Shown here: piece by piece, positions 33,901 through 57,112 of the stretch
How the letters are laid out: each line of letters opens with the position of its first letter
Position numbering within the stretch: position 1 is the stretch's first letter
DNA from: Bacteroidales bacterium
GTDB lineage: Bacteria > Bacteroidota > Bacteroidia > Bacteroidales > F082
DNA: 64,000 nt
Direction of reading: 5' to 3'
Assembly: GCA_017632935.1 (NCBI GenBank)
Contig: JAGBQJ010000010.1
Coordinates: 62,001 to 126,000, forward strand
Notes under the pieces: model-generated
Databases searched by the model: none
Told to the model about the DNA's origin: nothing
Seen by the model: the letters and a program-made list of their open reading frames with translations, nothing else
Position numbers and translations under genes: made by a program

Positions 33901-34358
33901 GCAGGCACGTATTGCATTGGCGTGAAGCCGCTGAAGGCAAAAGCCACGCCGTTCAGGTATTGCGTGCTGACATTGCTGAAACCTTGCGTTGGATAGGCGT
34001 TTCCGGAACGATACAGGGCCTCGTTTTTCGCGAAAGGAATCTCCTCCACGTTGGAAACAGGGCGAGGCTGTTGGTAAGGATAGAGATTGAACGAGCCTTC
34101 AAGCTCCACAAAATCAAGGAACTCCACGTTGACTAGAGCGGCCTCTTGACCTTGTGGTAGTATTAGGCTGACGCTCTGCCAAGGCAGCGTGGGCTCGCCT
34201 ACAGTTCCAACAGGCAGGCAGCCTTGGAAGGAGATTTGCTGGTAGCCATCATGCTCGCTGACGACGGGCTGGCTGAAATGATAGGTTTGTTCAATAGTTT
34301 GGGCCTGCGCAAATAGGGCGGAGACCAATAGCACTAAGATTAGATTTAGTTTCTTCAT
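30987..34358 (-). CDS. T9SS-secreted gingipain-like C25 cysteine peptidase (longer copy)
   Basis: 1123 residues. The first 600 residues align with the downstream paralogue throughout: signal peptide, the LPWQSVSLILPQG propeptide segment, the RGRVIGGYDMLVIT start of the peptidase, and the catalytic pair H444 (HHVGHANSNY) and C481 (SHGCICGNF). In addition it has about 350 extra residues: a CARDB/Ig-like part (about 690-880) and a jelly-roll, lectin-like domain (about 900-1040; WFITEDEAHSGTHSARSG, ISFWLKTS, YAFEAGSHVFKWLY, CAWIDDITFP) before the T9SS sorting domain (AIYPNPTKGTFTIEL, GVYFVRISN). The extra domains probably bind a surface or substrate. First gene of the two-gene operon. Confidence 0.92.
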   Translation of the reverse strand: MKKLNLILVLLVSALFAQAQTIEQTYHFSQPVVSEHDGYQQISFQGCLPVGTVGEPTLPWQSVSLILPQGQEAALVNVEFLDFVELEGSFNLYPYQQPRPVSNVEEIPFAKNEALYRSGNAYPTQGFSNVSTQYLNGVAFAFSGFTPMQYVPATGKVSYARTVKVSIETVSNRDDHSRKLWLTPENEVSIKRLAQNENMLSTYSKRGRVIGGYDMLVITSEEWIPRFGEYLNLYNDKGIRTRIVSLEEIYATMEGRDEQEQIRNYIIQEYEENGIQMVSLGGDVSIVPYRSLYCWAQEGYEDDLPADMYYACLDGTLNDDNDNRWGEVGEDDLLPELGIGRLPFNNEVQFETIMHKTFSYLQTPVMGEFTSPILGAEHLGDGYYGDVDMERLIGTVTDYDYTTTGYPEDYNFKRYYASPRVNWSAVDFKKVICSGGQYVHHVGHANSNYVAGWEGSSLTNNYFSGNDGVNHNYMLFHSHGCICGNFPASCILEKMVTIQTGFVVTTGNSRYGWYVPWGDGMAAHIHREFVDAYCNDRIASVGMALREAKIATAPWVTAWNEESGCMRWNIYCLNVMGDGALTPWFEEPFTPNVVYEQGLKTGTSATTVNVNQYGTPLRDFCVSLFDGETLLARNITDENGNAELDFETPLDVIGEMRLVVTGQSAWPQILEVTGFDGNEPFVYGDIVSFEGEAQTGAQSLWVDGDIYNKGNETAYNIHAEVTSDCEYIHTYDNNFTIDELAPNSTMQNHHLGMIDIDDNVPDQTIFTLNFTTYVGDATHTTQKSFLALAPNLQFDNIELEETQGDGNGYVDPGEYGIIHITGKNAGHALAPDAYLTLGNIGEGLHIDETTHQLGNINANGVFNININIHTDSDIVSGTTYNLDLCLHTGAYATNHSYSFGVGMAIETFESGDFSFVEWEHAGDQHWFITEDEAHSGTHSARSGEIDNNENSYLLVYTDILYDGEISFWLKTSTELRKDLLAFFIDDNLEDWWSGETDWTHASYAFEAGSHVFKWLYNKNSSGQSGSDCAWIDDITFPRTCTITKIEEVVAPKTNAIYPNPTKGTFTIELAEESSVSIYNMLGQNVMSLNKLSGMQQLHLSEAGVYFVRISNANGNEVKKVVVE

Positions 34359-34402
34359 ATTAAATGGAATGTTTAACTTCGTTATAAGTTTTGAATTGGG
34401 CG

Positions 34403-34410
34403 CAAAAATA
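34403..34410 (-). promoter_or_regulatory. Bacteroidota -7 element for the C25 peptidase operon
   Basis: TATTTTTG on the minus strand, 44 bp upstream of the ATG at 34358, within a 111-bp divergent gap. No good -33 TTTG is seen. Confidence 0.4.
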
Positions 34411-34442
34411 AAAAAATCTGCTGTGATTTTTTGGTTTTTTTA

Positions 34443-34450
34443 TAATTTTG
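34443..34450 (+). promoter_or_regulatory. Bacteroidota -7 element for ddh
   Basis: TAATTTTG followed by C matches TAnnTTTG, 19 bp before the ddh ATG at 34470, back-to-back with the element at 34403. The -33 region is T-rich without a clear TTTG at the expected distance. Confidence 0.45.
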
Positions 34451-34469
34451 CCCTTTAAATTTCAAAAAA

Positions 34470-35363
34470 ATGAAGAAAATCAGAGCCGCCGTAGTAGGTT
34501 ACGGCAATGTGGGCCGCTTCGCGCTCGAAGCCTTGGAAGCCGCCCCTGACTTCGAAGTGGCTGGCATCGTCCGCCGCAACGCTAACAAAACTATTGAACT
34601 CTCTTCTTATGAGGTGGTGACAGACATCAAGCAGCTGAAAGACGTGGATGTGGCCATTCTGGCTTGCCCCACGCGTAGCTGTCCTGAGTACGCCAAACAA
34701 ATCCTGCCCTTGGGCATCAATACAGTGGATTCTTTCGACATCCACACTTCCATCGTCGACTACCGCCGCGAGCTGATGCCTATTAATAAGGAAACAAACA
34801 CCGTCAGCGTCATCGCTGCGGGCTGGGACCCGGGCTCGGACTCCATCGTCCGCACCTTGATGCAGAGCCTCGCACCTAAAGGCTTGTCGTACACTAACTT
34901 CGGCCCAGGTATGTCGATGGGTCACAGCGTCTGCGTGCGCTCCAAGATAGGCGTGAAAAACGCCCTTTCAGTGACCATTCCGTTAGGCGAAGGCATCCAC
35001 CGCCGCATGGTGTATGTGGAGCTTGAAGACGGTGCCACGCTCGAACAAGTGACCGCCGACATCAAGGCCGATCCGTATTTCGCCAGTGACGAGACCCATG
35101 TGTTTGCCGTCGACAGCGTGGATGCGGTCCGCGACATGGGCCATGGTGTCAATTTGGTGCGTAAGGGCGTCTCAGGCAAGACCCAAAACCAACGCATGGA
35201 GTTCAACATGAGCATCAACAACCCCGCCTTGACGGGTCAGGTGCTGGTCAACGTGGCCCGCGCCACGATGCGCCTGCAACCAGGCTGCTACACGATGGTG
35301 GAGATTCCTGTCATTGACATGCTGCCTGGCGAGCGTGAAGACTTGATTGGACATCTGGTGTGA
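34470..35363 (+). CDS. ddh: meso-Diaminopimelate dehydrogenase
   Basis: 297 residues. This NADPH-dependent enzyme (EC 1.4.1.16) makes meso-diaminopimelate from tetrahydrodipicolinate in one step, feeding lysine and peptidoglycan synthesis. The N-terminal Rossmann fold starts AAVVGYGNVGRF. Diagnostic substrate-domain stretches include CPTRSCPEYAKQ, DSFDIH, AAGWDPGSDSIVR, NFGPGMSMGHS and the C-terminal NPALTGQVLVNVARA. The family length is matched. Its TGA stop overlaps the ATG of the GH3 gene by one base (TGATG), so the two are translationally coupled despite having unrelated roles. Confidence 0.97.
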   Translation: MKKIRAAVVGYGNVGRFALEALEAAPDFEVAGIVRRNANKTIELSSYEVVTDIKQLKDVDVAILACPTRSCPEYAKQILPLGINTVDSFDIHTSIVDYRRELMPINKETNTVSVIAAGWDPGSDSIVRTLMQSLAPKGLSYTNFGPGMSMGHSVCVRSKIGVKNALSVTIPLGEGIHRRMVYVELEDGATLEQVTADIKADPYFASDETHVFAVDSVDAVRDMGHGVNLVRKGVSGKTQNQRMEFNMSINNPALTGQVLVNVARATMRLQPGCYTMVEIPVIDMLPGEREDLIGHLV

Positions 35364-37675
35364 TGAGACGTTTTGCTCCCTTGCTGATTCTTTTGATCAT
35401 GGTGTCTTGTACCCAGGAGCAAGACCCCGTTGAATCGTTGCTGTCGCAGATGACCCTAGAGGAGAAATGCGGCCAGCTGAGTTGTCCCATAGGCTTCGAC
35501 TTCTACGGCAAGGACGGCGATTCCCTTTGGCTCTCCGACGACTTCCTCAGCAGGATGGACACGATGCCGCTCGGCTCGTGCTGGGCGGTGCTTCGTGCTG
35601 ACCCTTGGTCAAAGAAAACGGTGGAGACGGGTCTTCATCCAAAGGAATCGGCGAAGTTGCTGAACATGATGCAACGCCATGCAGTGGAAAACACGCGCCT
35701 CGGCATCCCGCTGTTGTTTTGCGAAGAGACTCCCCACGGTCACATGGCGGTGGGTACGACCGTCTTCCCGACAGGCATAGGCCAGGCCAGCACTTGGGAC
35801 CCCGTCTTGCTCGAACAGATGGGTGAGGTGATGGGGAAGGAGGTACGTCTGCAAGGCGCGCAAATCGGCTATGGGCCCGTCCTTGATATTGCCCGCGACC
35901 CAAGGTGGTCGAGGGTGGAGGAGACTTTCGGAGAGGACCCGTATCTCTCGGGCGTTTTGGGTGCAGCGGTCGTCAAAGGGATGCAAAAACATGCCTGCGC
36001 TACATTGAAACATCTCGCTGCCTACGGCATCCCGCAAGGAGGACACAACGCCGCCACCGCTGATGTCGGGCCCAACCGCATGATTACCGACTATCTGCCC
36101 TCGTTTGAAAAAGCCATCTGCGAAGGTGGCGCCAAGACCGTCATGACGTCCTACAACACCATCGATGGTGTGCCTTGCTCGGCCAATGCATGGCTGCTGC
36201 AAGAGGTTTTGCGCAACTCATGGAATTTCAAAGGTGTGGTTTTCAGTGATTTGAATGCCGTCAATGCCATCTATGCCACGCAACATGAGGCCGCCGACCC
36301 TGCCGAAGCCGCGGCCTTGGCTTTGAAAGCGGGTGTTGACATCGATTTGGGCGGCTACAACTACGGTGGCTTTTTGAAAGAAGCCTTGCAACGCGGCCTC
36401 GTCTCCGAAGCTGACATTGACCGCGCTGTGCGACATGTGCTACAACTGAAATATGACCTCGGATTGTTCGATAATCCCTATGTAGACGAAGCCTTGGTTG
36501 AGGCTGAAGTAGGCACAAGTGAAAGTGCCCAAGTGGCCAAACAAGTTGCTTTGGAATCCGCTGTGCTGCTGAAAAACGACGGCATCTTGCCTTTTGGAGC
36601 CCATATTAATAAGGTGGCGGTCATCGGGCCGAATGCAGATAACATGTACAACCAACTTGGCGACTACACTGCACCGCAACCCCCCGATCGTATCGTGACC
36701 CTATTAGAAGGTATCCGCGAAAAGGGCAGGGCAGAGGTGCTGTATGCCAAAGGCTGTGCCGTGCGCGACGAAAACGATGCCGACATTGAAGCAGCCGTAA
36801 AAATCGCGCAACAGGCTGATGTTGTGGTGCTTGTGGTAGGTGGTAGCTCTGCCCGCGACTTCAAAACGAGTTATGAAGACACAGGTGCTGCCATCGTGGA
36901 CGAGCACGTTTCCGACATGGACTGTGGCGAGGGCTATGACCGCTCGACATTAAAGCTTTTGGGCAAGCAAGAGGAACTGATGCAGCGCATCTATGCCACG
37001 GGCAAGCCCGTGGTGACGGTCTATATACAAGGTCGGCCCATGGACATGAACTTGGCCAACGAGAAGTCCAATGCCTTGCTGACGATGTGGTACCCCGGTA
37101 TGGAAGGCGGCTCTGCTTTGGCCGACATCCTTTGGGGTGACTACAACCCCGCTGGTCGTCTGCCTATCTCAGTGCCTCGTTCGGTGGGACAAATCCCCGT
37201 GTATTATTCCCAGCCTCAAATGGGCGATTATGTAGAAGAATCTGCCCAACCCATGTTTCCCTTCGGCTACGGCCTGAGCTATACTCAATTCGAATACAGT
37301 GATTTGCAAGTTGAAACCCTGTCGACCATGTCATCCCAGCAGGGGTCTGTGGGTAAGGGGGGATCTATGGCCGACACCCTTTGCAAAGTCACCTGCACAG
37401 TAAAAAACATCGGTCCTTGCGACGGTGACGAAGTGGTGCAGCTCTATGTCCGCGACGAGGTGGCCAGCATTGCCCCCGCCTCCAATCTGCTGAAAGGCTT
37501 CCAAAGGGTGCATATTAATAAAGGTGTAGCCCAACAAGTATTCTTCTATCTCGCCAAGCGCGATTTGGCGCTCTATTCCGTTGCGGAAGGCTGGCGTTTT
37601 GAGCCAGGCGCGTTCACATTCATGGTGGGCGGGAGCTCGGATAATCTTTTGTTTGTTACGTCTCGTTGCGAATAA
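35363..37675 (+). CDS. Glycoside hydrolase family 3 lipoprotein (beta-glucosidase/xylosidase type)
   Basis: 770 residues from ATG 35363; a GTG one codon earlier is in frame but less likely. The lipobox LIMVSC puts the lipidated Cys near 15. The GH3 N-terminal barrel shows MTLEEKCGQL, FCEETPHGH, GPVLDIARDPRWSRVEETFGEDP and LKHLAAYG. The nucleophile is D296 in GVVFSDLNAV. The C-terminal sandwich domain starts near VLLKNDGILPF and holds VVLVVGGSS, with a fibronectin-like end (GDEVVQLYVRDEVAS). It releases beta-linked sugars from oligosaccharides at the periplasm or outer membrane. An odd Ser/Gly-rich segment (37330-37380) sits before the fibronectin-like domain. It converges with a chromate transporter 9 bp away. 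Confidence 0.94.
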   Translation: MRRFAPLLILLIMVSCTQEQDPVESLLSQMTLEEKCGQLSCPIGFDFYGKDGDSLWLSDDFLSRMDTMPLGSCWAVLRADPWSKKTVETGLHPKESAKLLNMMQRHAVENTRLGIPLLFCEETPHGHMAVGTTVFPTGIGQASTWDPVLLEQMGEVMGKEVRLQGAQIGYGPVLDIARDPRWSRVEETFGEDPYLSGVLGAAVVKGMQKHACATLKHLAAYGIPQGGHNAATADVGPNRMITDYLPSFEKAICEGGAKTVMTSYNTIDGVPCSANAWLLQEVLRNSWNFKGVVFSDLNAVNAIYATQHEAADPAEAAALALKAGVDIDLGGYNYGGFLKEALQRGLVSEADIDRAVRHVLQLKYDLGLFDNPYVDEALVEAEVGTSESAQVAKQVALESAVLLKNDGILPFGAHINKVAVIGPNADNMYNQLGDYTAPQPPDRIVTLLEGIREKGRAEVLYAKGCAVRDENDADIEAAVKIAQQADVVVLVVGGSSARDFKTSYEDTGAAIVDEHVSDMDCGEGYDRSTLKLLGKQEELMQRIYATGKPVVTVYIQGRPMDMNLANEKSNALLTMWYPGMEGGSALADILWGDYNPAGRLPISVPRSVGQIPVYYSQPQMGDYVEESAQPMFPFGYGLSYTQFEYSDLQVETLSTMSSQQGSVGKGGSMADTLCKVTCTVKNIGPCDGDEVVQLYVRDEVASIAPASNLLKGFQRVHINKGVAQQVFFYLAKRDLALYSVAEGWRFEPGAFTFMVGGSSDNLLFVTSRCE

Positions 37676-37684
37676 AAGCTTTTC

Positions 37685-38224
37685 TTAATACGCAAAAAAT
37701 CCCACCACTCCGGAAAGCACAATCAGCAATATCGGATTGGCTTTGAAGAAATACGAAGCCACGAACGCCAACACGCAGATGACAACGCTGATGTTGTATT
37801 GGCCGCGACCGAAGTCCACGAAATTCTGGGTGTTCATCATCGCGAGACCAGCAGCGAAGATGAGACCGGCGATAGCGGGTTTCAGGCCTTTCAAGGTGTT
37901 GGTCATCAAGGAGTTGTTCTTCTTGCTCATGAAGAGCTTTATAATAAGGTACACCATGATGACGGAAGGCAGGCAGAGCGCGAACGAGGCCAACAACGAA
38001 CCGCCGAAGCCTCCAGCCGTGTAACCCACGTAAGTCGCCAAGTTGATGGAGATGGGCCCGGGTGTCATCTGCGAGATGGCCACCATGTCGGCAAACTCGG
38101 TTGTGTTCATCCAACCGTAGTTGTCCACCACCTCATGCTGGATGAGGGAGAGCATGGCATATCCCCCGCCGAAGCCCAGCACACCGATTTTCACGAAGAC
38201 CCAAAGTAACTGCAAGTAAATCAT
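37685..38224 (-). CDS. Chromate transporter, second half-size subunit
   Basis: 179 residues with about six hydrophobic segments and the CHR-family start: LLWVFVKIGVLGFGGGYAMLSLIQHEVVD, then ISQMTPGPISINLATYVGYTAGGFGGSL. Two half-size CHR proteins from adjacent genes normally pair to form the inner-membrane transporter, which exports chromate in known cases; in anaerobes the natural substrate is uncertain. Its ATG overlaps the stop of the first subunit by 4 bp (ATGA), so synthesis is coupled. The first segment has the same FxKIGxxxxGGGYAML motif as the partner, so they are ancient paralogues. Confidence 0.93.
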   Translation of the reverse strand: MIYLQLLWVFVKIGVLGFGGGYAMLSLIQHEVVDNYGWMNTTEFADMVAISQMTPGPISINLATYVGYTAGGFGGSLLASFALCLPSVIMVYLIIKLFMSKKNNSLMTNTLKGLKPAIAGLIFAAGLAMMNTQNFVDFGRGQYNISVVICVLAFVASYFFKANPILLIVLSGVVGFFAY

Positions 38225-38784
38225 GGCTTGGCCTCCTTCTTTTTGGCTTTTTTGTTGATAATCAGCGCATAGATGAGGCTACCCGCAATGGCGGCGAGGA
38301 TGACGTAGGCGGGCGAGATCTTGCACCACCAGATGAGAAACACCGTGGCGATGGGGATGATGGCGGTCTTCCAGGTCACCTTGGCCGATTTGATCATGCG
38401 CAGGGAAGGGGCGAGGATGAGCGCCACAACGCAGGGACGGATGCCCTTGAAGACGCGCTCCACCACGGGATTGTCGCGGAACTCACGGAATACCGTGGCC
38501 AAGAGCAGGATAATGGTGATGGACGGGATGATGGCACCCAGCATGGCGGCAAAGGCGCCCTTCGTGCCTGCCACGCGATGCCCAACGTACAAGGCCGTAT
38601 TGACGGCAAAGACGCCTGGAAGTGATTGAACTACAGCGATCATGTCCCAAAACTCGTCGTTGGGAATCCACTTCTTCTGGTCGACGACGGCCTTCTCCAC
38701 CATCGACAGCATGGCATAGCCACCGCCGAGGGTAAAAGCCCCGATTTTGAAGAAAGACCAGAACAGTTCGAACACTTTTTTCAT
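38221..38784 (-). CDS. Chromate transporter, first half-size subunit
   Basis: 187 residues, CHR family (PF02417). It begins with FELFWSFFKIGAFTLGGGYAMLSMVEKAVVD, continues AVVQSLPGVFAVNTALYVGHRVAG, and has about six membrane segments ending in a Lys-rich cytoplasmic tail (NKKAKKKEAKP). It precedes and overlaps the second subunit. It is divergent from the glutamate symporter gene, whose promoter sits in the 72-bp gap. No chromate or sulfate regulatory gene is nearby. Confidence 0.93.
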   Translation of the reverse strand: MKKVFELFWSFFKIGAFTLGGGYAMLSMVEKAVVDQKKWIPNDEFWDMIAVVQSLPGVFAVNTALYVGHRVAGTKGAFAAMLGAIIPSITIILLLATVFREFRDNPVVERVFKGIRPCVVALILAPSLRMIKSAKVTWKTAIIPIATVFLIWWCKISPAYVILAAIAGSLIYALIINKKAKKKEAKP

Positions 38785-38800
38785 GCCGCAAAATTAAGAA

Positions 38801-38832
38801 TTTGTTTCGTATTGAAAAAATTAGTACGTTTG
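38801..38832 (+). promoter_or_regulatory. Bacteroidota promoter of the GltS-type symporter
   Basis: TTTG at 38801-38804, a 20-bp spacer, and TACGTTTG at 38825-38832 make the best complete match in the window to the -33/-7 consensus. It lies 24 bp upstream of the ATG at 38857 and argues against any start further upstream. Confidence 0.75.
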
Positions 38833-38856
38833 CGGACTATTTTTAAAGACGAGTTT

Positions 38857-40269
38857 ATGACACTATTAGACGCTTCTGTTATGACCTTCGACCAGCCTCA
38901 AGCTTGGAATTGGCTGGTGCAATTCTGCATTTTGGCAACGGCCTTGTTGATAGGTAACGTGCTGAGGACCAAGATCCCCTTCTTGCGCAAAAGCCTGATT
39001 CCCTCGGCTTTGATTGGCGGCTTGCTGCTCTTGGTTTTCAAGGCGATTCCAGGGTGCAAGGAGCTCATCAACAAGCCGGTGATGGAAATCGTAACCTATC
39101 ACGCCTTGGGTTTGGGTTTTGTGGCCTTGGCGCTGAAAAACAACAAGATAGAATCGAAATCCACACCGATGAAGGTGATTGAGACGGGCGCTTTGACGGC
39201 CTCTACTTACGTCATCCAAGGCATCGTGGGCCTCATCGTTTCCATCTTGTTCTTCTATTTCGGCAGGAAACTGTTTTATGCGGCAGGCCTGTTGTTGCCC
39301 ATGGGTTACGGACAAGGACCAGGACAGGCCTTGAACTTCGGCAAGATCTTCACAGGCTGGGCCACGCAGCAGGGCATCGATTTCCCAGGTGCCGACTTCG
39401 GCCTCTCCATCGCGGCCACGGGCTTCATCGTGGGTAGCGTGGTTGGCGTTATTTATATGAACATCCTGCGCCGTAAAGGGGTGCTTTCAAGAAAGAAAAT
39501 CATTGATGCACAGACCAATAAGTTGGAGGACTATGAAGGCAAGGGCGAGATTCCCGATGCTGAGTCCATCGACAAGCTCTCGGTGCAGATTTGCATGGTT
39601 TTGTTTGTCTATTTCCTTGTCTTCCTGTTCACGAACTGGATACAGGGGATGGAGCTGGGCAAATTCGGCACTAACACACTGAAACCCATGCTTTGGGGCT
39701 TCAACTTCTTGATAGGTACGCTGTTCGGCATCCTTTTCAAGTGGATTTTAGGCCGTTTCAAGAAGGCCAAGTTGATGAGTCGAGAGTACATTAACAATTA
39801 TATGCTCAATCGTATTAGCGGCTTCTGCTTTGATGTCATGATTGTGGCGGGCACGGCAGCCATCAGTTTCGAGGACTTCGGCAAATTCGTGCTGCCCTTC
39901 ATTATCATCTGTACCTTGGGTGCGGCGGTCACCTTTATTTATGTGCTTATCATTTGCAAACACCTATATCCCAACTACAAATATGAAGGCTTCTTCTCGA
40001 TGTTCGGCATGTTGACGGGCACGGCCAGCAATGGCATGATTCTGCTGCGTGAAATCGACCCGAAGTTTGAGACCCCTGCCGCTAACAACCTCGTGCTGCA
40101 GACCCTTTCGGCCATCGTATTGGGCTTCCCTGTGCTGCTCCTGGTGGGCTATGCTCCGCAAAGCCTGAAAGCCACGTGGATTACTTTGGGCATCTTGGTC
40201 GTTTTCTGGGCTGCGCTGACGGTGTTTATGCTTCGGACGAAAATCTTCAAGCGCAAGAAGAAGGAATGA
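38857..40269 (+). CDS. Sodium/glutamate symporter family (GltS/ESS) transporter
   Basis: 470 residues from ATG 38857, set by the promoter just upstream; a start at 38881 is also possible. It has roughly 11-12 hydrophobic segments in two inverted halves, with the conserved Gly-rich pore loops: LLPMGYGQGPGQALNFG and GLSIAATGFIVGS in the first half, and GMLTGTASNGMILLREIDP in the second. It is longer than E. coli GltS (about 400), as is usual for Bacteroidota members. It should import glutamate or a related amino/dicarboxylic acid with Na+ across the inner membrane. It ends at a strong terminator shared with rplS. Confidence 0.9.
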   Translation: MTLLDASVMTFDQPQAWNWLVQFCILATALLIGNVLRTKIPFLRKSLIPSALIGGLLLLVFKAIPGCKELINKPVMEIVTYHALGLGFVALALKNNKIESKSTPMKVIETGALTASTYVIQGIVGLIVSILFFYFGRKLFYAAGLLLPMGYGQGPGQALNFGKIFTGWATQQGIDFPGADFGLSIAATGFIVGSVVGVIYMNILRRKGVLSRKKIIDAQTNKLEDYEGKGEIPDAESIDKLSVQICMVLFVYFLVFLFTNWIQGMELGKFGTNTLKPMLWGFNFLIGTLFGILFKWILGRFKKAKLMSREYINNYMLNRISGFCFDVMIVAGTAAISFEDFGKFVLPFIIICTLGAAVTFIYVLIICKHLYPNYKYEGFFSMFGMLTGTASNGMILLREIDPKFETPAANNLVLQTLSAIVLGFPVLLLVGYAPQSLKATWITLGILVVFWAALTVFMLRTKIFKRKKKE

Positions 40270-40274
40270 AAATG

Positions 40275-40310
40275 AAAAGAGCCCCGAGCAACGCTCGGAG
40301 CTCTTTTTTT
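40275..40310. terminator. Rho-independent terminator between gltS-type gene and rplS
   Basis: GAGCCCCGAGC and GCTCGGAGCTC form an 11-bp stem with one mismatch around loop AAC, with seven T residues following on the plus strand and an A-run before it, so it can work in both directions for the two convergent genes. Confidence 0.85.
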
Positions 40311-40328
40311 CGTTGTTTGTAGAAGGAA

Positions 40329-40682
40329 TCAGTCTTTGAGTTCCTTGATTCTGGCTTTCTTGCCGCGCAAACCACGAAGGTAGTAGATGCGGGACTTGCG
40401 GACAGCGCCCTTCTTGTTCACCTCAATGTTCTCAATCATCGGGGAGGCAATGGGGAAACATCTTTCCACGCCAACATTGTTGGAAATCTTGCGGATGGTG
40501 AAAGTACCAACCTTGCCTTGTCCACTACGCTTCAGGACGATGCCCTGGAACTTCTGCAGACGCTCTTTTTGTCCTTCGACAATCTTGTAGGTCACCGTGA
40601 TGGTGTCGCCTGTCTTGAACTTCGGAAAATCTTTTACAACGATTTGATCTTCAACGAATTGAATTAATGCGTTCTTGCTCAT
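40329..40682 (-). CDS. rplS: 50S ribosomal protein L19
   Basis: 117 residues from ATG 40682; an in-frame upstream start would add 17 unrelated residues and cross the promoter. L19 sits at the 30S-50S interface of the large subunit. The family core is intact: FKTGDTITVTYKIVEGQKERLQ, FQGIVLKRSGQG, FTIRKISNNVGVER and YYLRGLRGKKARIKE. It lies directly downstream of trmD, the classical order, though rpsP and rimM are not next to them here. A -7 element in the 77-bp gap suggests it can also be transcribed alone. Confidence 0.98.
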   Translation of the reverse strand: MSKNALIQFVEDQIVVKDFPKFKTGDTITVTYKIVEGQKERLQKFQGIVLKRSGQGKVGTFTIRKISNNVGVERCFPIASPMIENIEVNKKGAVRKSRIYYLRGLRGKKARIKELKD

Positions 40683-40722
40683 TTTTATATATTTTTGTAT
40701 ATTTTTCTCCAAAAAGTGGGTG

Positions 40723-40730
40723 CAAAAATA
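40723..40730 (-). promoter_or_regulatory. Bacteroidota -7 element for rplS
   Basis: TATTTTTG followed by C on the minus strand, 40 bp upstream of the rplS ATG, inside the trmD-rplS gap. It would give rplS a supply of transcript independent of trmD. Confidence 0.45.
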
Positions 40731-40759
40731 CAAATAATTTCAATACGGAACGCAGAAAT

Positions 40760-41449
40760 TCAGCTTTTTTTGAAAATTTCGTACATTTCAGGTCTGCGCA
40801 CCTTGGTGCGTTCAATGGCCTGTTCCAACCGCCAGTCGTTGATGAGCTTGTCGTTGCCCGACAAAAGCACTTCGGGAACTTCCCAACCTTTGTAATTTCG
40901 CGGTCGGGTATAGACAGGTGGCGACACCAAGCCGTCCTGGAAGGAGTCGGAGAGGGCAGAGGTCTCATCGCCCAAGGCTCCTGGAATGAGGCGCACCAAA
41001 CTGTCGACCAGCACAGCGGCACCGAGTTCTCCGCCAGAAAGGACGTAGTTTCCTATGCTTATCTCTTTGGTAATCAGATGTTCACGGATGCGCTCATCGA
41101 TACCTTTATAGTGCCCGCAAAGGATGATGATGTTTTCCTTCATCGAGAGTTGGTTGCACAGAGGCTGGTCGAGCATCTCACCGTCGGGGCTCATATAGAT
41201 GACCTCGTTATAGTCCCTTTGGCTTTTCAAATGGCTGATGCAGTTGTCGACGGGCTCAATCATCATCACCATGCCCGCGCCGGCGGCAAAGGAATAGTCG
41301 TCCACCTTGTGGTGCTTGTCGGTGCTGTAGTCGCGGAGGTTGTGCAGGCCTATCTCCACAATGCCCTTGTTTATGGCGCGTTTGATGATGGACTCGGTGA
41401 AGGGACCCTCAAACATTTCGGGGAAAACGGCGATGATGTCGATGCGCAT
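40760..41449 (-). CDS. trmD: tRNA (guanine-N1)-methyltransferase TrmD
   Basis: 229 residues from ATG 41449; the longer open frame runs upstream but the family begins [15 protein letters not shown]. TrmD methylates G37 of tRNAs using S-adenosylmethionine through a trefoil-knot fold and prevents frameshifting. Diagnostic stretches: [79 protein letters not shown] and [20 protein letters not shown]. Length and knot motifs are normal. A -7 element (TACTTTTG, minus strand) lies at 41474-41481. Confidence 0.98.
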
Positions 41450-41473
41450 GACCTTACTTTTTGTAATTTTCGG

Positions 41474-41481
41474 CAAAAGTA
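41474..41481 (-). promoter_or_regulatory. Bacteroidota -7 element for trmD
   Basis: TACTTTTG followed by C on the minus strand, 24 bp before the trmD ATG; confirms the short start. Its plus-strand counterpart is at 41525. Confidence 0.45.
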
Positions 41482-41524
41482 GGGATTTTGTGCAATTAAT
41501 TGGCTTTGAATGGCGAAATATTGC

Positions 41525-41532
41525 TACTTTTG
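41525..41532 (+). promoter_or_regulatory. Bacteroidota -7 element for the T9SS protein gene
   Basis: TACTTTTG followed by C, 20 bp before ATG 41553. A TTTG at 41505-41508 is 16 bp upstream, a little short for a -33 partner. Confidence 0.45.
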
Positions 41533-41552
41533 CGTTCTGTAATGTGTCACCT

Positions 41553-43715
41553 ATGAGGAAAACGCTTTTGTTGTCGGTTTTGTTGTTTGTGCTGACTCTT
41601 ATGGTCAAGGCGCAGCCCGTTACCATCACGCCGCCTTCGGCAAATATCCAGCCAGGACAGTCGGTGACACTCACCGCCTCAGGTGCCATGTACTACCAAT
41701 GGTCGCCGGCGACGGGGCTTTCTACGACTGAAGGTCCGGTTACGGTGGCGTCACCTGTGGTGACTACCACCTATATTTGTTCGGGGTATGCTCCTGGTGA
41801 CGAAAGTGTTGTCAATGGTGACTTTGAGCAAGGCAATTTCGGGTTTACTTCGGCTTACGAATACAATTCCAACCTTTGGGCTGAAGGCACGTATTATGTG
41901 GATTATGACGCCAGCCTGCATCATGACAATTTTCATGGATTGGCGCATGGCGGAACGGGTAATTTCATGATTATCAATGGCGCTACTGTTCCTGGTACCA
42001 ATGTCTGGACAGAGCAGATTGCCGTCAACCCGCATACCTATTATGCTTTTTCTACATGGGTCTGTACTATTGGCGGCAGCGCGCATCAAGTGGCCAATCT
42101 GCAGTTTAGTATCAATGGCGAGCAGGTCGGCGATGTGTTTTACGCTCCGGCGTTCCAAAACACTTGGGATCGGTTTTATGAGCTTTGGTATAGTGGTGAC
42201 GCTACTTCTGCCACCATCACCATCCTGAATCAAAACACGGGTGGTGACGGAAATGACTTTGGTTTAGACGACATATCTTTTTGTGAGCTGGTGCTGGTGG
42301 GGGCTCCCGAATGTACGGTCTCTGTGGGCAGTATGAGCGTTTCGGCCTCTGTCGACGATGTTGAGCTTTGTGCGGGTGAATCCACTACGCTACACGCCTT
42401 TCCGGTGAACGGATCGGGTAACTATACCTATAGCTGGACTCCATCCAACACCTTGAACAATCCATCGGTGCAGCATCCTATAGCCACGCCTGCGGTGGGT
42501 ACTACCACCTATACATGCCATGTCGTTGATGTCGATTGGAACAACACGCAGGATGTTGGTGTTAGCCTGACCGTTTTTCCACCCAACGATACCATCGTTG
42601 ACCCTCGGAGCATCTGCGAGTCACAGACCTTGTTTTGGCATGGACACGAATACGACCAATACGCCCCTATCGGTTATTTTGACACCGTCGACAATCACGG
42701 ATGTCTAAAGGTCTACAAGCTTGAGCTTGCCGTAGGGGAATACCAGACCCCTTCTGACTGGAATCCCAATCAGTATGTTTGTGTCCCCCATGGCGAAGAC
42801 CCTCACTATCATTGGGCTATTGCCAACAAAGACTATGAACGCAATGCCATAGACTCCGTCGTCATCCCCGATCCAGAAGGGGGATGCGACTTTAAGTATT
42901 ACTTGAATCTAAAGTTCCATCAAGAGTTTTATTCGGAAGTGTGGGCCGATACCTGCGACGAGTATTTTTGGCCTATCTCGGGAGAAAACTATGATACAAC
43001 TCAGCAGGTTACGAAGACCTTCAAACATAGCTTTGGTGATGTGGAATGTGACAGCACATACGTCCTGAACTTGAACATCACGTATTCCCCATCCCCTGAA
43101 AAAATCATCTGCACCACACCTAGTGCTGTAGTGTTTGGTATGCCAGGTGCTGAGGCTGACACTGTCGCAGTGGTGACCAACACCGAGTTTTTCTCCTTCC
43201 AATACTCTTTTTATGTCGTAGAGCCTAACCGCGAATGTGTATGGGATGCATGCAAATGGAGCATCAACAAGCCTTCGTGGTCCCTTGGCGATACCCTTAC
43301 CGGGCTGTCGCCGGACGGGACTTATTACAGCAAATGTACGGTTTATGTGGCCGAACGCGACGATGATTATGTCGTTCTCACCGCCACCATTTACAACGGT
43401 TGCAGCAGTGAGGAACGCAATATCTACCTCAAGCCTTCTTTCTTCGACATAGAGGAGCAGTACAATTCCCAGCCCGACTTCAGTATTGTCCCCAACCCCA
43501 ACAACGGACAGATGACCCTCATTTTCAATCGTTTCGAAGGAAAAGTCAATATGAAGGTCTACGATGTGACAGGTAACATGATTGACAGCTTCGAGACCTG
43601 TAATGATTTGGAATCGAAGGCTTTGGAGTATGAACTAAATGCACGTAAAGGCATTTATTTCTTTGTGGCCAATGGAAGAGAAGGCAGTGTCGCAAAAAAG
43701 GTGGTAATCAGGTGA
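41553..43715 (+). CDS. T9SS-secreted multidomain surface protein (Ig-like and jelly-roll domains)
   Basis: 720 residues from ATG 41553, which starts a signal peptide ([21 protein letters not shown]). About 22-88 is a PKD/Ig-like domain ([17 protein letters not shown]...[11 protein letters not shown]). About 90-245 is a jelly-roll region like carbohydrate-binding modules ([36 protein letters not shown]). About 260-345 is a second Ig-like domain. Two repeats follow, the first beginning [13 protein letters not shown], of the same kind as in the C10 peptidase at 22329. The C-terminus is a T9SS type A sorting domain ([16 protein letters not shown]...[10 protein letters not shown]). No catalytic motif is visible; adhesion or glycan binding is an inference. 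Confidence 0.88.
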
Positions 43716-51652: not shown

Positions 51653-52900
51653 ATGAAACGAAAAGCTATTCTGCCCTGGATCAGCATCGCTTTGGCTCTG
51701 GCCTCGGCGGTGGGCATCTATTTCCTGCCCGAGTACCATCTCTGGTTTCTGGCCGTCTTGCTGCTTAACCTGCTGGCGGCCTTTGTCTTCGGCAAAAAAT
51801 ACAGCAATGCCGCCCTGACCGTCTGCCGTCTGTTGGTGGGCGCCTTGTTCATCTTCAGCAGCTTCACCAAAGGCGTCGACCCGCTGGGCACGAAATACAA
51901 GATGCTGGATTATCTTTCCGTCTACGGCATGACTTGGCTCAATGACTATACCTTGGTACTGGCCATTGGCATGATATTGGCGGAGTTTTTAGTTGGCATT
52001 TGTTTGATTACTAAGGTCTTGCCGCGATTGGCGGTGCTTGGCGCGACCTTGTTGATGCTGTTTTTCACCATCACCACCTTGTTCGATGCTTTGTACGACC
52101 TGGTGCCCGACTGCGGCTGTTTCGGCACGGCCATCAAGATGAGCAACTGGCAGACCTTCTACAAGAATCTCGTCATCGATGCGGTGCTTGTTCCGTTGAT
52201 TATCAACAACAAGCAACTTAAGAATAGGCTTGGCTTTGTGGTGCAGTTCCTTATTGGATGCTTCTTTGCGGGCGCGTTTTTGGGCTTCGAGATTTACAAC
52301 TACCGTCACCTGCCCGTTATCGATTTCATGAACTGGAAGGTGGGCAAGCAGATGAATGCCGAGCCTACCGAAGAGACGCGCATCTATCTGATTTACAGAA
52401 ATAAAGCCACGGGCGAGACGCAGGAATTCATTTCGCCCAACTATCCCTGGAACGACTCAGTGTGGATGTCTCAATGGGAGTTTGTCGACCAGCAGACGGA
52501 GGGCGGTGCCAACTTCCTCGGCTTCTCAGCTTTGGACGAAGAGGGCAACGATGTCACTGAATCGATTCTCACCACGGATAACCTGCTGATGTTCACCTCA
52601 CACGATTTGACCAAGGTGACCGAAGAGGAATGGGAGAAAGCCAAAGTAATTACAGAAACTGCTGAAAAACAAGGTTGTACCGTGATTTGGACGGTCGCCG
52701 ACGAGCCAGAATATGTTGAACAGCTGCGGCAGAAATACGGTTTCCTGTACGAAGTGTATTACGCTGATGAACTGGAAATCAAGCCGATCGTGCGCTCCAA
52801 CCCTGGGCTTATATGGTTGGATAACGGCTTAGTGAAGGACAAATGGAGTGCGGTGGACTTCCCGCAAGGGGAGAAATTGGAACAATTGTTTGTTGAATAA
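51653..52900 (+). CDS. DoxX/MauE-like membrane protein with extracytoplasmic C-terminal domain
   Basis: 415 residues with about seven to eight hydrophobic segments in the first 230 residues. The DoxX-like core includes RLLVGALFIFSSFTKGVDPLGT, a glutamate-bearing helix (GMILAEFLVGICLI), and the DCGCFGTAIKMSNWQTFYKNLV loop with a CGC pair as in MauE/vitamin K reductase-like proteins, which suggests a thiol or quinone redox role. The C-terminal about 180 residues are soluble, with a late WTVADEPEYVEQLRQKYGF stretch suggesting a thioredoxin-like fold (inference). It follows DUF1599 by 23 bp. A repeat begins right after its stop. Confidence 0.85.
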   Translation: MKRKAILPWISIALALASAVGIYFLPEYHLWFLAVLLLNLLAAFVFGKKYSNAALTVCRLLVGALFIFSSFTKGVDPLGTKYKMLDYLSVYGMTWLNDYTLVLAIGMILAEFLVGICLITKVLPRLAVLGATLLMLFFTITTLFDALYDLVPDCGCFGTAIKMSNWQTFYKNLVIDAVLVPLIINNKQLKNRLGFVVQFLIGCFFAGAFLGFEIYNYRHLPVIDFMNWKVGKQMNAEPTEETRIYLIYRNKATGETQEFISPNYPWNDSVWMSQWEFVDQQTEGGANFLGFSALDEEGNDVTESILTTDNLLMFTSHDLTKVTEEEWEKAKVITETAEKQGCTVIWTVADEPEYVEQLRQKYGFLYEVYYADELEIKPIVRSNPGLIWLDNGLVKDKWSAVDFPQGEKLEQLFVE

Positions 52901-52945: not shown

Positions 52946-54013
52946 ATGGGAGCTTACATCATCAGGAAGTTGCTATACGGTATCGCGGTGCTTTGGGGCG
53001 TCGCGACACTGGTCTTTTTCCTCTTCAACATCCTGCCTGGTGACCCTGCCCAAATGATGCTCGGCCAGCGCGCCGACGAGGCCTCGGTGAATGCCATACG
53101 CGAAGAACTTGGCATGAATCAAAGCCTTGGAAAGCAATATGTCGACTACCTCAACGACTTGGTTCCGATTTCGTTTTACGATGTCTCGAAAGACACGCAA
53201 AAACTCGACAAAATCGAACACTACGCCAAGTTGGCGACCATTGGCGCGACGGCCATCGTGCTGAAAGGGCCTTATCTCCGCATGTCGTACCAAAGCAAGC
53301 GCAAGGTCTCCGACATCTTGGGCGAAGCCTTTCCGAACACCTTGCTGCTTGCGGCTGTTTCCATCTCCATTGCCATGATCTTGGGCTTGCTTATCGGCAT
53401 CTTGACGGCAGTCATCAACACCAAGTTCCTTAACAAATTGACGTTGTTCATCACCACCATAGGCATGTCGCTGCCCTCGTTCTTTGCCGCCATCCTGATG
53501 GCGTGGGTCTTTGGCTTCCTTTTGGAGCATTATACGGGTTTGAGCATGACAGGCAGTCTTTACACCGTCGATGAATACGGCAGGGGAGAGTTTCTCAGTT
53601 TGCGCAACCTCATCTTGCCCGCACTGACCTTGGGTATGCGACCCTTGGCGGTGGTGACCGAACTGACTCGTACTTCCTTGCTCGAAGCCATGTCGATGGA
53701 CTATGTGCGCACGGCACGGGCCAAAGGCTTGAAGCCTTGGCGCGTTATCTGCGTTCACGCCTTGCGCAATGCCTTGAATCCTGTGGTGACAGCGGTCTCA
53801 GGATGGTTTGCCTCGTTGCTGGCAGGTGCTGTTTTCGTGGAGTATGTCTTTGACTGGAAGGGCATTGGTGTGGTGGTGGTCGACGCGTTGGACAAATATG
53901 ATTTTCCCGTCATCATGGGTGCGGTGTTGCTCATCGCGGTCATGTTGATTATCGTCAATATCGTGGTGGACATTATTTATGGTATCATCGATCCAAGAGT
54001 AAGAATTAATTAG
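52946..54013 (+). CDS. Oligopeptide/dipeptide-type ABC transporter permease (DppB/OppB family)
   Basis: 355 residues. It opens with the family start YIIRKLLYGIAVLWGVATLVFFLFNILPGDPAQMMLG, then a long periplasmic loop (about 60-125), and five further membrane helices. The binding-protein-dependent permease signature is present (MDYVRTARAKGLKPWRVICVHALRNALNPVVT, the EAA loop), and the protein ends VVDIIYGIIDPRVRIN. It should form half of the inner-membrane channel of a peptide or nickel importer. No second permease, ATPase or binding protein is nearby. It is bracketed by repeats that abut its start and its stop. Confidence 0.93.
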   Translation: MGAYIIRKLLYGIAVLWGVATLVFFLFNILPGDPAQMMLGQRADEASVNAIREELGMNQSLGKQYVDYLNDLVPISFYDVSKDTQKLDKIEHYAKLATIGATAIVLKGPYLRMSYQSKRKVSDILGEAFPNTLLLAAVSISIAMILGLLIGILTAVINTKFLNKLTLFITTIGMSLPSFFAAILMAWVFGFLLEHYTGLSMTGSLYTVDEYGRGEFLSLRNLILPALTLGMRPLAVVTELTRTSLLEAMSMDYVRTARAKGLKPWRVICVHALRNALNPVVTAVSGWFASLLAGAVFVEYVFDWKGIGVVVVDALDKYDFPVIMGAVLLIAVMLIIVNIVVDIIYGIIDPRVRIN

Positions 54014-54062
54014 GAATGCGGAATGCGGAATGCAGAATGCAGAATGCGGAATGTGGAATTGG
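54014..54062. repeat. GAATGCG heptad tandem array
   Basis: Seven consecutive 7-base units begin the base after the permease stop codon: GAATGCG, GAATGCG, GAATGCA, GAATGCA, GAATGCG, GAATGTG, GAATTGG. The first six are nearly identical; the last is degenerate. No open frame uses it. Confidence 0.9.
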
Positions 54063-54065
54063 AAA

Positions 54066-54089
54066 TGTAGGGACGCAGTGCCTGCGTCC
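54066..54089. repeat. TGTAGGGACGCA hairpin repeat
   Basis: TGTAG leads into a perfect inverted repeat, GGACGCAG (54071-54078) and CTGCGTCC (54082-54089), around loop TGC. There is no T-run, so it is not a classical terminator. The TGTAGGGACGCA-type element is one I recall as dispersed in Bacteroidales genomes. It lies between the heptad array and the kinase gene. Confidence 0.65.
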
Positions 54090-54122
54090 GGAGAATAGTA
54101 AAAGAAAAATTATAAGAAATAC

Positions 54123-56309
54123 ATGATTATGCAAGGACAAACAATCAATGGGTACATATTACAGCGCAGGCTGGGCGAGGGCGGCATGGCCGAGGTTTGG
54201 TATGCCGAGAATGAGATTGGCAAACCGGCCGCAGTGAAGATTCTCAATGAGAATCTGTCGCGAAATACTCAAATCGTGGAGCGTTTCCACAACGAGGCCT
54301 TAGTGATGGTTAAACTTGACCATCCCAACATCCGTCAGGTGTACGGCTACGGCTACTTGGACGATCGCCATTGCATCATTATGGAGTATCTTGACGGTGA
54401 TGACTTGGACGCTCTGTTGAGGAGTGGCAGGCATTTCACCGATGAGGAGTTGCGTCGTTGGTGGAACCAGACGGTTGACGCGCTCAACTACACCCATGCC
54501 ATGGGTATCGTACATCGCGACATCAAACCTTCGAACCTCTTTTTGGACAAGAGGGGTAACATCAAACTGCTCGACTTTGGCATCGCCAAGGTGAAGGAGA
54601 GCATGTCGATGACGCGTACGGGCATGACGATGGGTACACTGATGTATATGAGCCCCGAGCAGGTGAAAGACCCCAAGCGAGTGGGGGTAAAATCCGATGT
54701 TTATTCTCTTGCAGTGGCATTCGTGCACCTGCTAACGGGTAAGCCTATCTATGACAGCGATACGAGTAGTGAATTCGACATTCAAGTGAGCATTGTCACC
54801 AAACCTGTTGACTTGTCTGCCGTGCCGTCTGCTTGGCAGGGTTTCCTTGAACCGTATTTGGAGAAAGATCCAGACAAACGGCCTGCTTTGAGTCATTTTG
54901 AGGAAGTGGAAAGCCTGTCTCCAGCATCGACTCCTGCCATGGAAGCCAAGACTGTTGTGGGTGGTATGGCATCTGCTGTAGCCCAGCCAGACAACACGCT
55001 TTCATCGGGAGCCACTCGTGTCGTGACTTCCTCTAAGGAGGAACGTAATAGCAGCTCATCGATCCGTGAAAACGAAACGTCAACGCCTTCGATCGAGGAC
55101 AAACCCAAAAGCAAAGCAGGACTTTGGATTGGAATCGGCATAGCGGTAATAGTGGCATTGGCCTTGTTGTTGCTATTGATAAAACCCAAGGGAGAAGAAT
55201 ATGATAATAAACAAAGTGATAGGAATGAACAGTATGTGACGGATAGTCTCGCGATAGCCCAAGCCCAGCAGCAGATAGATGAAGAATCACAAACCCAAGC
55301 TAATGCTGGGGTGGAGCTGAAACCAACCAGCAAGCCAACAGACAAAAAAACAGCATCGCTTTGCGATGAACCTCGTTATGCTGCTTTATTCCAGCTTCCC
55401 CATGGATTGAAAGGTTATTTCGATTTTGAGCAGGCTATGGCTTGTGCGAAAAAACAGAAAAAACCGCTTTTTGTTGATTTCACAGCCCACGGAAGTACTA
55501 ACAACCGTGAGATGGAGGCCAACGTTTGGAATGATCAGCATGTGTTGAAGCTGTTGCGTGAAGAATACGTTATCGTTGCGCTTTATGTTGACGACAAGAC
55601 TCAACTGCCTGAAAATGAATGGTACACTTCGACATACGATGGTAAAGTGAAGAAAACTATTGGACGCAAGAATGCCGACTTCCAGATTTCGGAGTTCGGC
55701 ACCAACGCGCAGCCTTACTACTGTCTGTTAGACAATAAGGGTAATCTTATTACGAAGCCTTACTCGTACAGCCTTGATAAAGACAAATTCGTCCAATTCC
55801 TTCAAAAAGGTATTGATGATTTCAAGAAAGGAGTATGCTACCAAAAAAGACAGAATTCATCGGCTTCTGTTACCTCGAACACTTCAGAGAATTCAAAAAA
55901 GAATAAAAGCATGAATGGAGTAATAGAACCCGTTCGATGGACTTTTGAGATAAAAAAGCGAGGTAATGATGAGTTCGACATAGTCGCATCAGCCAAAATT
56001 GAACCTGAATGGTACCTGTTTTCTACAACGATGCCTGAATTGGGGCCACTGCCGACGAGATTTGAAATCGAGCCTTCCGAGTTCTTTCAGGCTGTTGGCA
56101 AGGCGAGAGACTTGACCAATGCGCCAATGTATTATGATGATGTTTTTGATTTAGAATACAAAAGATTTTCAGGCACAGCCTCATTTGCTCAGACATTCAA
56201 AAAACTGAAAGAAGGTTCATTCCCTATAAAAGGAGAAATATCAGGTATGGCAGAAAAAGAAGGTGTGGTAATTCCGTTGATGGAATATATTGATTTGGTT
56301 TACAAATAA
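54123..56309 (+). CDS. Transmembrane Ser/Thr kinase fused to cysteine-less DsbD-like gamma and alpha domains
   Basis: 728 residues (ATG 54123, or 54129). Residues 11-262 are a Hanks-type kinase with all key residues: glycine loop LGEGGMAEV, K39 in AAVKIL, HRDIKPSN (D133), DFG (D151) and MSPEQ. A Ser/Thr-rich linker leads to one membrane helix (332-353). Outside, about 425-585 is thioredoxin-like and reads like DsbD-gamma (PLFVDFTAHG...NREMEANVWND), but the CxxC is STNN (458-461). About 605-728 resembles the DsbD N-terminal alpha domain (RWTFEI, WYLFSTTMPELGPLPTRFEI) without its cysteine pair. It probably senses an envelope signal and phosphorylates cytoplasmic targets (inference). A heptad array and hairpin lie upstream; a thioesterase gene follows at 35 bp. 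Confidence 0.9.
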   Translation: MIMQGQTINGYILQRRLGEGGMAEVWYAENEIGKPAAVKILNENLSRNTQIVERFHNEALVMVKLDHPNIRQVYGYGYLDDRHCIIMEYLDGDDLDALLRSGRHFTDEELRRWWNQTVDALNYTHAMGIVHRDIKPSNLFLDKRGNIKLLDFGIAKVKESMSMTRTGMTMGTLMYMSPEQVKDPKRVGVKSDVYSLAVAFVHLLTGKPIYDSDTSSEFDIQVSIVTKPVDLSAVPSAWQGFLEPYLEKDPDKRPALSHFEEVESLSPASTPAMEAKTVVGGMASAVAQPDNTLSSGATRVVTSSKEERNSSSSIRENETSTPSIEDKPKSKAGLWIGIGIAVIVALALLLLLIKPKGEEYDNKQSDRNEQYVTDSLAIAQAQQQIDEESQTQANAGVELKPTSKPTDKKTASLCDEPRYAALFQLPHGLKGYFDFEQAMACAKKQKKPLFVDFTAHGSTNNREMEANVWNDQHVLKLLREEYVIVALYVDDKTQLPENEWYTSTYDGKVKKTIGRKNADFQISEFGTNAQPYYCLLDNKGNLITKPYSYSLDKDKFVQFLQKGIDDFKKGVCYQKRQNSSASVTSNTSENSKKNKSMNGVIEPVRWTFEIKKRGNDEFDIVASAKIEPEWYLFSTTMPELGPLPTRFEIEPSEFFQAVGKARDLTNAPMYYDDVFDLEYKRFSGTASFAQTFKKLKEGSFPIKGEISGMAEKEGVVIPLMEYIDLVYK

Positions 56310-56344: not shown

Positions 56345-57112
56345 ATGCACAAAATCGGTAAATACGAATTCACGGCAGAGCCTTTCCACTGCGACTTCTC
56401 GGGAAGGATGTTCCTTGGGCATTTGGGTAACCAGATGCTCAACGCGGCGGATTTCCATTCCACCGACCGCGGCTTCGGGATGAAATACCTGATGACCATC
56501 CAGCGTTCATGGGTGCTGTCGCGGCTGGCCATCGAGATGGAGGAGATGCCGGCGCAACATGAACATTACACCGTGGAGACCTGGGTAGAAAGTGCAATGA
56601 AGTTCTTCACGAGTCGTAACTTTTGTGTGTCGGGCAACGATGGTCGCATCTATGGCTACGGCCGCTCCATATGGGCGATGATTGACACGGAGACGCGTCA
56701 ACCTTCTGATATTTTTGCCATAGACAACGGCGCCATCAACGACTGGATCGTGAATGACAAGCCCTGTCCGATTGCACAAGGCGGGCGCGTGAAGATGTCG
56801 GGAAACGACGAATTGGTGCGCACCATTGACGTCAACTACAATGACATCGACATCAACGGACACGTCAACTCCATCAAATACATCGAGCATGTACTTGACC
56901 TTTGGAACATCGCTTGGTATCGCGAGCACCGATTGAAACGTTTCGAGATTGCATACGTGGCCGAAGCGCATCAAGGCGACCGACTGAGCTTCTATCGCGA
57001 GCAAAATGCTGAGAATGAGTATTGTGTACGATTGGTGAAGACGCAACCCGATAACGACAAGTCTGTCGAGGTATGTCGCTGTAAAGTAGTATTCGCCGAA
57101 ATAAACAAATAA
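56345..57112 (+). CDS. Acyl-ACP thioesterase family protein
   Basis: 255 residues, two hot-dog folds. It begins KIGKYEFTAEPFHCDFSGRMFLGHLGNQMLNAA, then TIQRSWVLSRLAIEMEEMP, and the catalytic region of the second fold DVNYNDIDINGHVNSIKYIEHVLD (Asp, Asn, His and Asn in the usual spacing). These enzymes release fatty acids from acyl carrier protein in the cytoplasm. The length fits bacterial FatA/FatB-like proteins. It sits between the kinase fusion (35 bp upstream) and an exported hydrolase (8 bp downstream), so the three may form one transcript; a shared pathway is not obvious. Confidence 0.9.
   Translation: MHKIGKYEFTAEPFHCDFSGRMFLGHLGNQMLNAADFHSTDRGFGMKYLMTIQRSWVLSRLAIEMEEMPAQHEHYTVETWVESAMKFFTSRNFCVSGNDGRIYGYGRSIWAMIDTETRQPSDIFAIDNGAINDWIVNDKPCPIAQGGRVKMSGNDELVRTIDVNYNDIDINGHVNSIKYIEHVLDLWNIAWYREHRLKRFEIAYVAEAHQGDRLSFYREQNAENEYCVRLVKTQPDNDKSVEVCRCKVVFAEINK

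Follow-up and report, generated by a model that had tools for sequence, protein, structure and literature searches.

A putative receptor Ser/Thr kinase of a Bacteroidales bacterium carries a redox-dead copy of two DsbD domains as its predicted periplasmic module

Our analysis of a 64,000-nucleotide stretch of Bacteroidales DNA (referred to here as the window) identifies a gene on the forward strand (54123..56309, +; 728 aa, no internal stop) whose product joins a Hanks-type Ser/Thr kinase to two domains derived from DsbD, in the order kinase-gamma-alpha. This architecture is real, and its outer module is a redox-dead copy of DsbD rather than an electron pathway. In our best explanation, to which we assign a probability of about 0.43, the protein would be a single-pass receptor Ser/Thr kinase whose gamma-alpha module goes back to a DsbD in the wider lineage of the host and docks the partners of the periplasmic DsbD hub; its kinase family contains a second fusion with a DsbD alpha domain. 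The more far-reaching proposal, that the kinase monitors the reducing branch by means of an inert DsbD copy and that its family invented DsbD-based sensing twice, once in a redox-dead form and once in a form that retains the cysteine pair, appears to us rather doubtful.

Comparison with the starts of paralogues indicates that translation likely begins at the second ATG (54129). The kinase domain (aa 12-258; 54156..54896, +; Pkinase E 6.4e-53) is complete, as a previous sequence-only reading of the gene had stated, with its catalytic motifs all present (K39, HRD 131-133, and DFG 151-153). That reading had also proposed a single membrane helix, and our hydropathy scan indeed detects one strongly hydrophobic segment only, at about aa 333-355 (55119..55187, +). 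Taking DsbD and this single helix together, the kinase should be cytoplasmic and the C-terminal gamma-alpha module periplasmic. Pfam reports a thioredoxin-like match at aa 434-492 (E 4.6e-9); DsbD_TM is absent from its list, the central multi-helix membrane domain is missing, and no PASTA family appears at E values up to 10. Zero NCBIfam models reach their cut-off, the top one, PknB_PASTA_kin, scoring 237 bits against a required 450 and matching only to residue 384. According to the main text of PMC6213207, in which the word thioredoxin does not occur, the receptor Ser/Thr kinases PknB, PrkC, and PknD are equipped with PASTA or propeller sensors. The window protein resembles such kinases in its Hanks kinase, its one helix, and its predicted external sensor; it differs from them in that this sensor is a DsbD-derived pair without PASTA repeats. 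Two close paralogues of the kinase are encoded in the host genome (65 and 69% identity over the matched parts).

Sequence, structure model, and fold search all assign both outer domains to DsbD, which upholds the ancestry suggested by the sequence-only reading. The gamma-derived thioredoxin-fold domain (aa 413-578; 55359..55856, +) shares 63.9% identity over 166 columns with the DsbD of the same genome and matches 3f9u, and the alpha-derived Ig-like domain (aa 600-728; 55920..56306, +) shares 59.8% over 132 columns and matches nDsbD folds; between them lies a Ser/Asn/Lys-rich linker of 21 residues (aa 579-599; 55857..55919, +) with low model confidence. The host's own DsbD (L129, on contig C43 of genome G000) passes the Pfam cut-offs for DsbD_N, DsbD_TM, and Thioredoxin_7 and, in the genome search, matches the outer part of the kinase in two pieces (63% identity over 409-578 and 60% over 599-727) that stand in the opposite order, just as had been noticed before. 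The gamma part stops at the natural C-terminus of DsbD, the linker follows, and the alpha part starts at the mature DsbD N-terminus (its signal peptide was read by eye); consequently, the multi-helix membrane part was lost and the domain order reversed. One well-kept stretch reads YYDDVF in the kinase and YYDDIF in the DsbD of the host. When solved sequences were searched with a profile of the alpha alignment, no true match emerged (best E 0.3), so that the link of this domain to solved nDsbD is carried by the fold searches. The structure model (pTM 0.61), built on an alignment (A1) that misplaces the alpha rows over their first 11 residues, does not fix the orientation of gamma versus alpha; this counts against our best explanation, as a preserved contact between the two would be putative at most. 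Compared with DsbD, the window protein thus retains the gamma and alpha domains, their folds, and most conserved positions, whereas a kinase has been fused in front, the order is reversed, and both the multi-helix membrane domain and the four gamma/alpha redox cysteines are gone.

These losses were assessed against the DsbDs of 40 genus and family genomes, picked among the matches listed; a match at E 1e-60 was present in 153 of the 173 family genomes. All 40 possess the four redox cysteines and the kinase possesses none of them (S458, N461, E711, and V716): the CxxC site (aa 458-461; 55494..55505, +) reads STNN where every DsbD has CVNC, and E711 and V716 (56253..56270, +) occupy the positions of the alpha redox pair. 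The sequence-only reading had pictured the recruitment of a working electron pathway as a sensor. With the four cysteines replaced, an electron-relay sensor has to be rejected for the known sites, and the key point that had been missed is that these residues disappeared from a domain pair that preserves its fold and the majority of its other conserved positions; the earlier interpretation is therefore partly supported. In the gamma domain, 44 of the 48 columns invariant across the 40 DsbDs are kept, and the four losses (G455A, C458S, V459T, and C461N) all fall into the active-site loop. Of 15 invariant alpha columns, derived from 39 DsbDs (L150, whose frame starts inside the domain, was excluded, as was the start-Met artefact M597), 11 are kept. 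The alpha losses are H631Y, Y633F, C711E, and C716V, and we take H631 and Y633 to line the active site of nDsbD. Were the same numbers of losses distributed at random, they would take in both cysteines with a probability of 0.0053 in gamma and of 0.057 in alpha (3.0e-4 jointly); the probability of all four gamma losses falling within 455-461 is 1.8e-4, for a segment chosen post hoc.

For many receptor Ser/Thr kinases of bacteria no ligand is known to us, cell-wall pieces for the PASTA kinases excepted (PMC6213207). We propose that the inert gamma-alpha pair keeps the docking surfaces of DsbD and might bind, without forming mixed disulfides, either DsbD itself or the thioredoxin-fold proteins that partner with the periplasmic reducing hub. 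Occupancy by a partner, or the redox form of that partner, would then shift receptor dimerisation and hence kinase activity, and a module lacking these redox cysteines could monitor the pathway while neither withdrawing its electrons nor becoming covalently trapped. In PMC7347389, nDsbD is described as the redox interaction hub to which cDsbD, DsbC, CcmG, and DsbG dock, with a cap loop as its guard. A parallel is offered by IRE1beta, which AGR2, a thioredoxin-fold protein, holds in its monomeric state (PMC10907643). In both cases a thioredoxin-fold protein whose site is non-standard tunes, or in our proposal would tune, a receptor kinase. However, IRE1beta and AGR2 are eukaryotic and separate proteins, and the effect of AGR2 required its cysteine (PMC10907643), unlike the arrangement proposed here, which counts against our best explanation; we draw an analogy only and do not claim homology of the receptors. 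If the docking model is correct, the partners of DsbD would be sampled without participation in electron flow, they would represent a candidate ligand class for a receptor kinase, and the module would exemplify the passage from enzyme to sensor, in which catalytic residues are lost and surfaces are kept.

The DsbD pair might, alternatively, have been retained as a stable exported scaffold that now binds an unrelated ligand such as a sugar, a peptide, or an envelope component, and its ancestry would then be uninformative about what is sensed. We consider this somewhat unlikely, although it is the strongest competitor: losses in the active site are to be expected from any repurposing, and the tails of the kinase family vary widely, from an FGE-sulfatase domain (L045) through ten WG repeats (L071) to MORN (L074), with those of L002, L003, and L044 giving no Pfam match at E 0.001; further tails were compared by eye. 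Surfaces freed from their former partners should, however, drift more than is compatible with 44 kept positions out of 48 in the gamma domain, Q530 and P531 among them.

The outer part contains four other cysteines, C414, C441, C534, and C572, a point against our best explanation; through them the module could still be redox-active, for instance in a receptor dimer linked by a C572 disulfide. The first three of these positions carry Cys in 25, 26, and 25 of the 40 DsbDs, respectively; position 572 is outside the columns with Cys in >30% of them. None of the four is at a DsbD redox site, and 414, 441, and 534 are variable among the DsbDs, which renders this possibility improbable.

As to the origin of the module, the gamma and the alpha tree agree in giving the kinase copy the same sister group, 17 DsbDs that make up one subclade of the genus; bootstrap values are 90 (gamma) and 100 (alpha) for the kinase plus the 17, and 99 and 96 for the 17 alone. 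These trees are consistent with a DsbD source within the wider lineage of the host, which forms part of our best explanation. That the module was recently copied from the dsbD gene of the host itself is unsupported: identity to this gene's product is 63.9% for gamma and 59.8% for alpha, the best values being 67.5% (L166) and 61.4% (L145), two DsbDs from outside the subclade reach 66.1% for gamma, and the trees place the kinase next to the 17 rather than among them. We also considered the step in GC3 between the head and the tail of the gene as a sign of foreign origin and dropped it; the same step, from a kinase head to a tail with lower GC3, recurs in 41 of the 54 kinase rows that have a tail, as if the two had separate histories. 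No viral relative was found.

Relative to nine DsbDs of the subclade, synonymous differences are saturated (pS 0.78-0.94), making dN/dS not computable for this comparison, and pN is 0.21-0.31; alpha pN is 0.47-0.48 against two DsbDs from outside the subclade. Selection has thus constrained the protein during much of its divergence from DsbD, although part of this may precede the fusion. The low pN versus pS may date from a working DsbD in an unsampled lineage, and this counts against our best explanation.

The gene is located between an oppB-type ABC transporter permease gene (52946..54013, +), which marks the left edge of an insertion, and an acyl-ACP thioesterase gene (56345..57112, +), which marks its right edge. 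We compared this locus with 29 sister loci around the thioesterase; a match to the thioesterase was present in 46 further genomes of the genus, from which these loci were drawn. The oppB permease is upstream of the thioesterase in 26 of the 29, and no kinase match at E 1e-8 was found in any of them, including the 26 with both neighbours. The kinase gene is hence an insertion relative to these sisters, in which the gap, in alignment coordinates, measures 3 to 241 bases in 25 loci and 1,102 bases in L116. In the latter, which stems from another species, the same gap holds an FKBP-type peptidyl-prolyl isomerase gene (L116:478-1407), so the junction took an insertion at least once more. Short GGAATGC-type repeats and an inverted repeat, GTAGGGACGCAGTGCCTGCGTCC, which is found once in the window, are present directly upstream of the kinase (54014-54120), and hairpins of similar look exist in the same gap of some sisters. 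Two genes upstream, 51653-52900 encodes a MauE-type membrane protein, possibly thiol-linked, whose AhpC/TSA-like tail is weak and does not reach the Pfam cut-off; such a protein is also found beside oppB in sisters.

The combination had been presented as new, and we did not meet it elsewhere in the genome, family-model, and literature searches that we made. With the outer part as query, a whole-module match in 99 genus genomes was found, among the matches listed, only in the window's own genome, and the extension to 173 family genomes (the 99 included) revealed, again among the matches listed, no orthologue in the other 172. The full protein retrieved no second fusion of this kind from 393 genomes of the order, at most two candidates being scored in each, and no second gamma-alpha fusion among 40 kinase loci of a genome collection, a search that may omit records near the window's genome. 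Each species was represented by one genome, and a strongly diverged fusion could escape these searches. No named family with this architecture was found, Pfam covering its parts only, and within the literature covered, which excluded subscription papers, no paper on a DsbD-kinase fusion was found. The fusion is accordingly without an orthologue in the searched sets, so that it offers no cross-species conservation, a fact that counts against our best explanation.

Its detection in one species only, together with the possibility that the low pN predates the fusion, could be taken to mean that we are dealing with a recent chance chimaera, a gene beginning to decay, or an assembly artefact. We regard this as very unlikely, since the frame is intact within a contig of 141,641 bases, the flanking genes run on as they do in the sisters, and each of the two domains differs by more than 30% from all DsbDs that were compared, which excludes a mis-join of recent date with the dsbD of the host. 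That the inert copy of an interaction hub primarily acts as a decoy, damping DsbD traffic by occupying its partners with the kinase in a secondary role, is at odds with the intact kinase motifs and is the least probable of the alternatives.

Close relatives of the kinase part itself (E 1e-85) occur in 10 of the 99 genus genomes, that of the window included. A scan with DsbD alpha and gamma profiles covered 80 kinase-bearing frames from 60 loci, some genes being seen through two collections. The window protein served as positive control (alpha E 2.8e-44; gamma E 2.9e-87); the scan recovered one further alpha match, L064 (E 6.8e-25), and no further gamma match below E 0.14 in the 80 frames. L064 stems from the MAG RGIG8153 (JAFZWE010000011.1) of water buffalo rumen and is composed of a signal peptide (by reading), an alpha domain, a helix, and the kinase. 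Its alpha domain was modelled with a pLDDT of 92.4, and 16 of the first 17 Foldseek matches were nDsbD chains, the remaining one being the N-terminal domain of ScsB. L064 and the window protein share the kinase family and a joined DsbD alpha domain; in L064, however, this domain is N-terminal and precedes the helix, gamma is missing, and the cysteine pair is kept. The opposite placement and an identity of only 24% between the two alpha domains make an independent capture in L064 likely. Since L064 keeps the cysteine pair and has lost six other alpha positions that are invariant in DsbDs, the two fusions need not work alike. No full-length relatives of L064 were found in 395 genomes of the class, with at most three candidates scored in each, and the search of its own genome (G561; 2.1 Mb, completeness unstated) yielded the alpha-kinase only and no DsbD.

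This kinase family resembles a modular receptor platform whose outer parts vary from gene to gene, and it offers a natural experiment in the origin of receptors. RGIG8153 contributes 11 of the 40 kinase loci (L046, L050, L051, L053, L054, L056-L059, L062, and L064), which represent an expansion of the family with varied tails. The tail of the kinase L080, from a genome of the window's genus, is the same as that in L039, from a Bacteroidales MAG of goat abomasum. Contig C21 of the host genome has a cluster (G000:C21, about 34000-42100; L006, L007, and L174-L180) in which two diverged kinases lie close to one PP2C_2 match and six FHA matches; given the PP2C_2 and FHA matches, all on this one contig, parts of a phosphorylation network exist in the genome.
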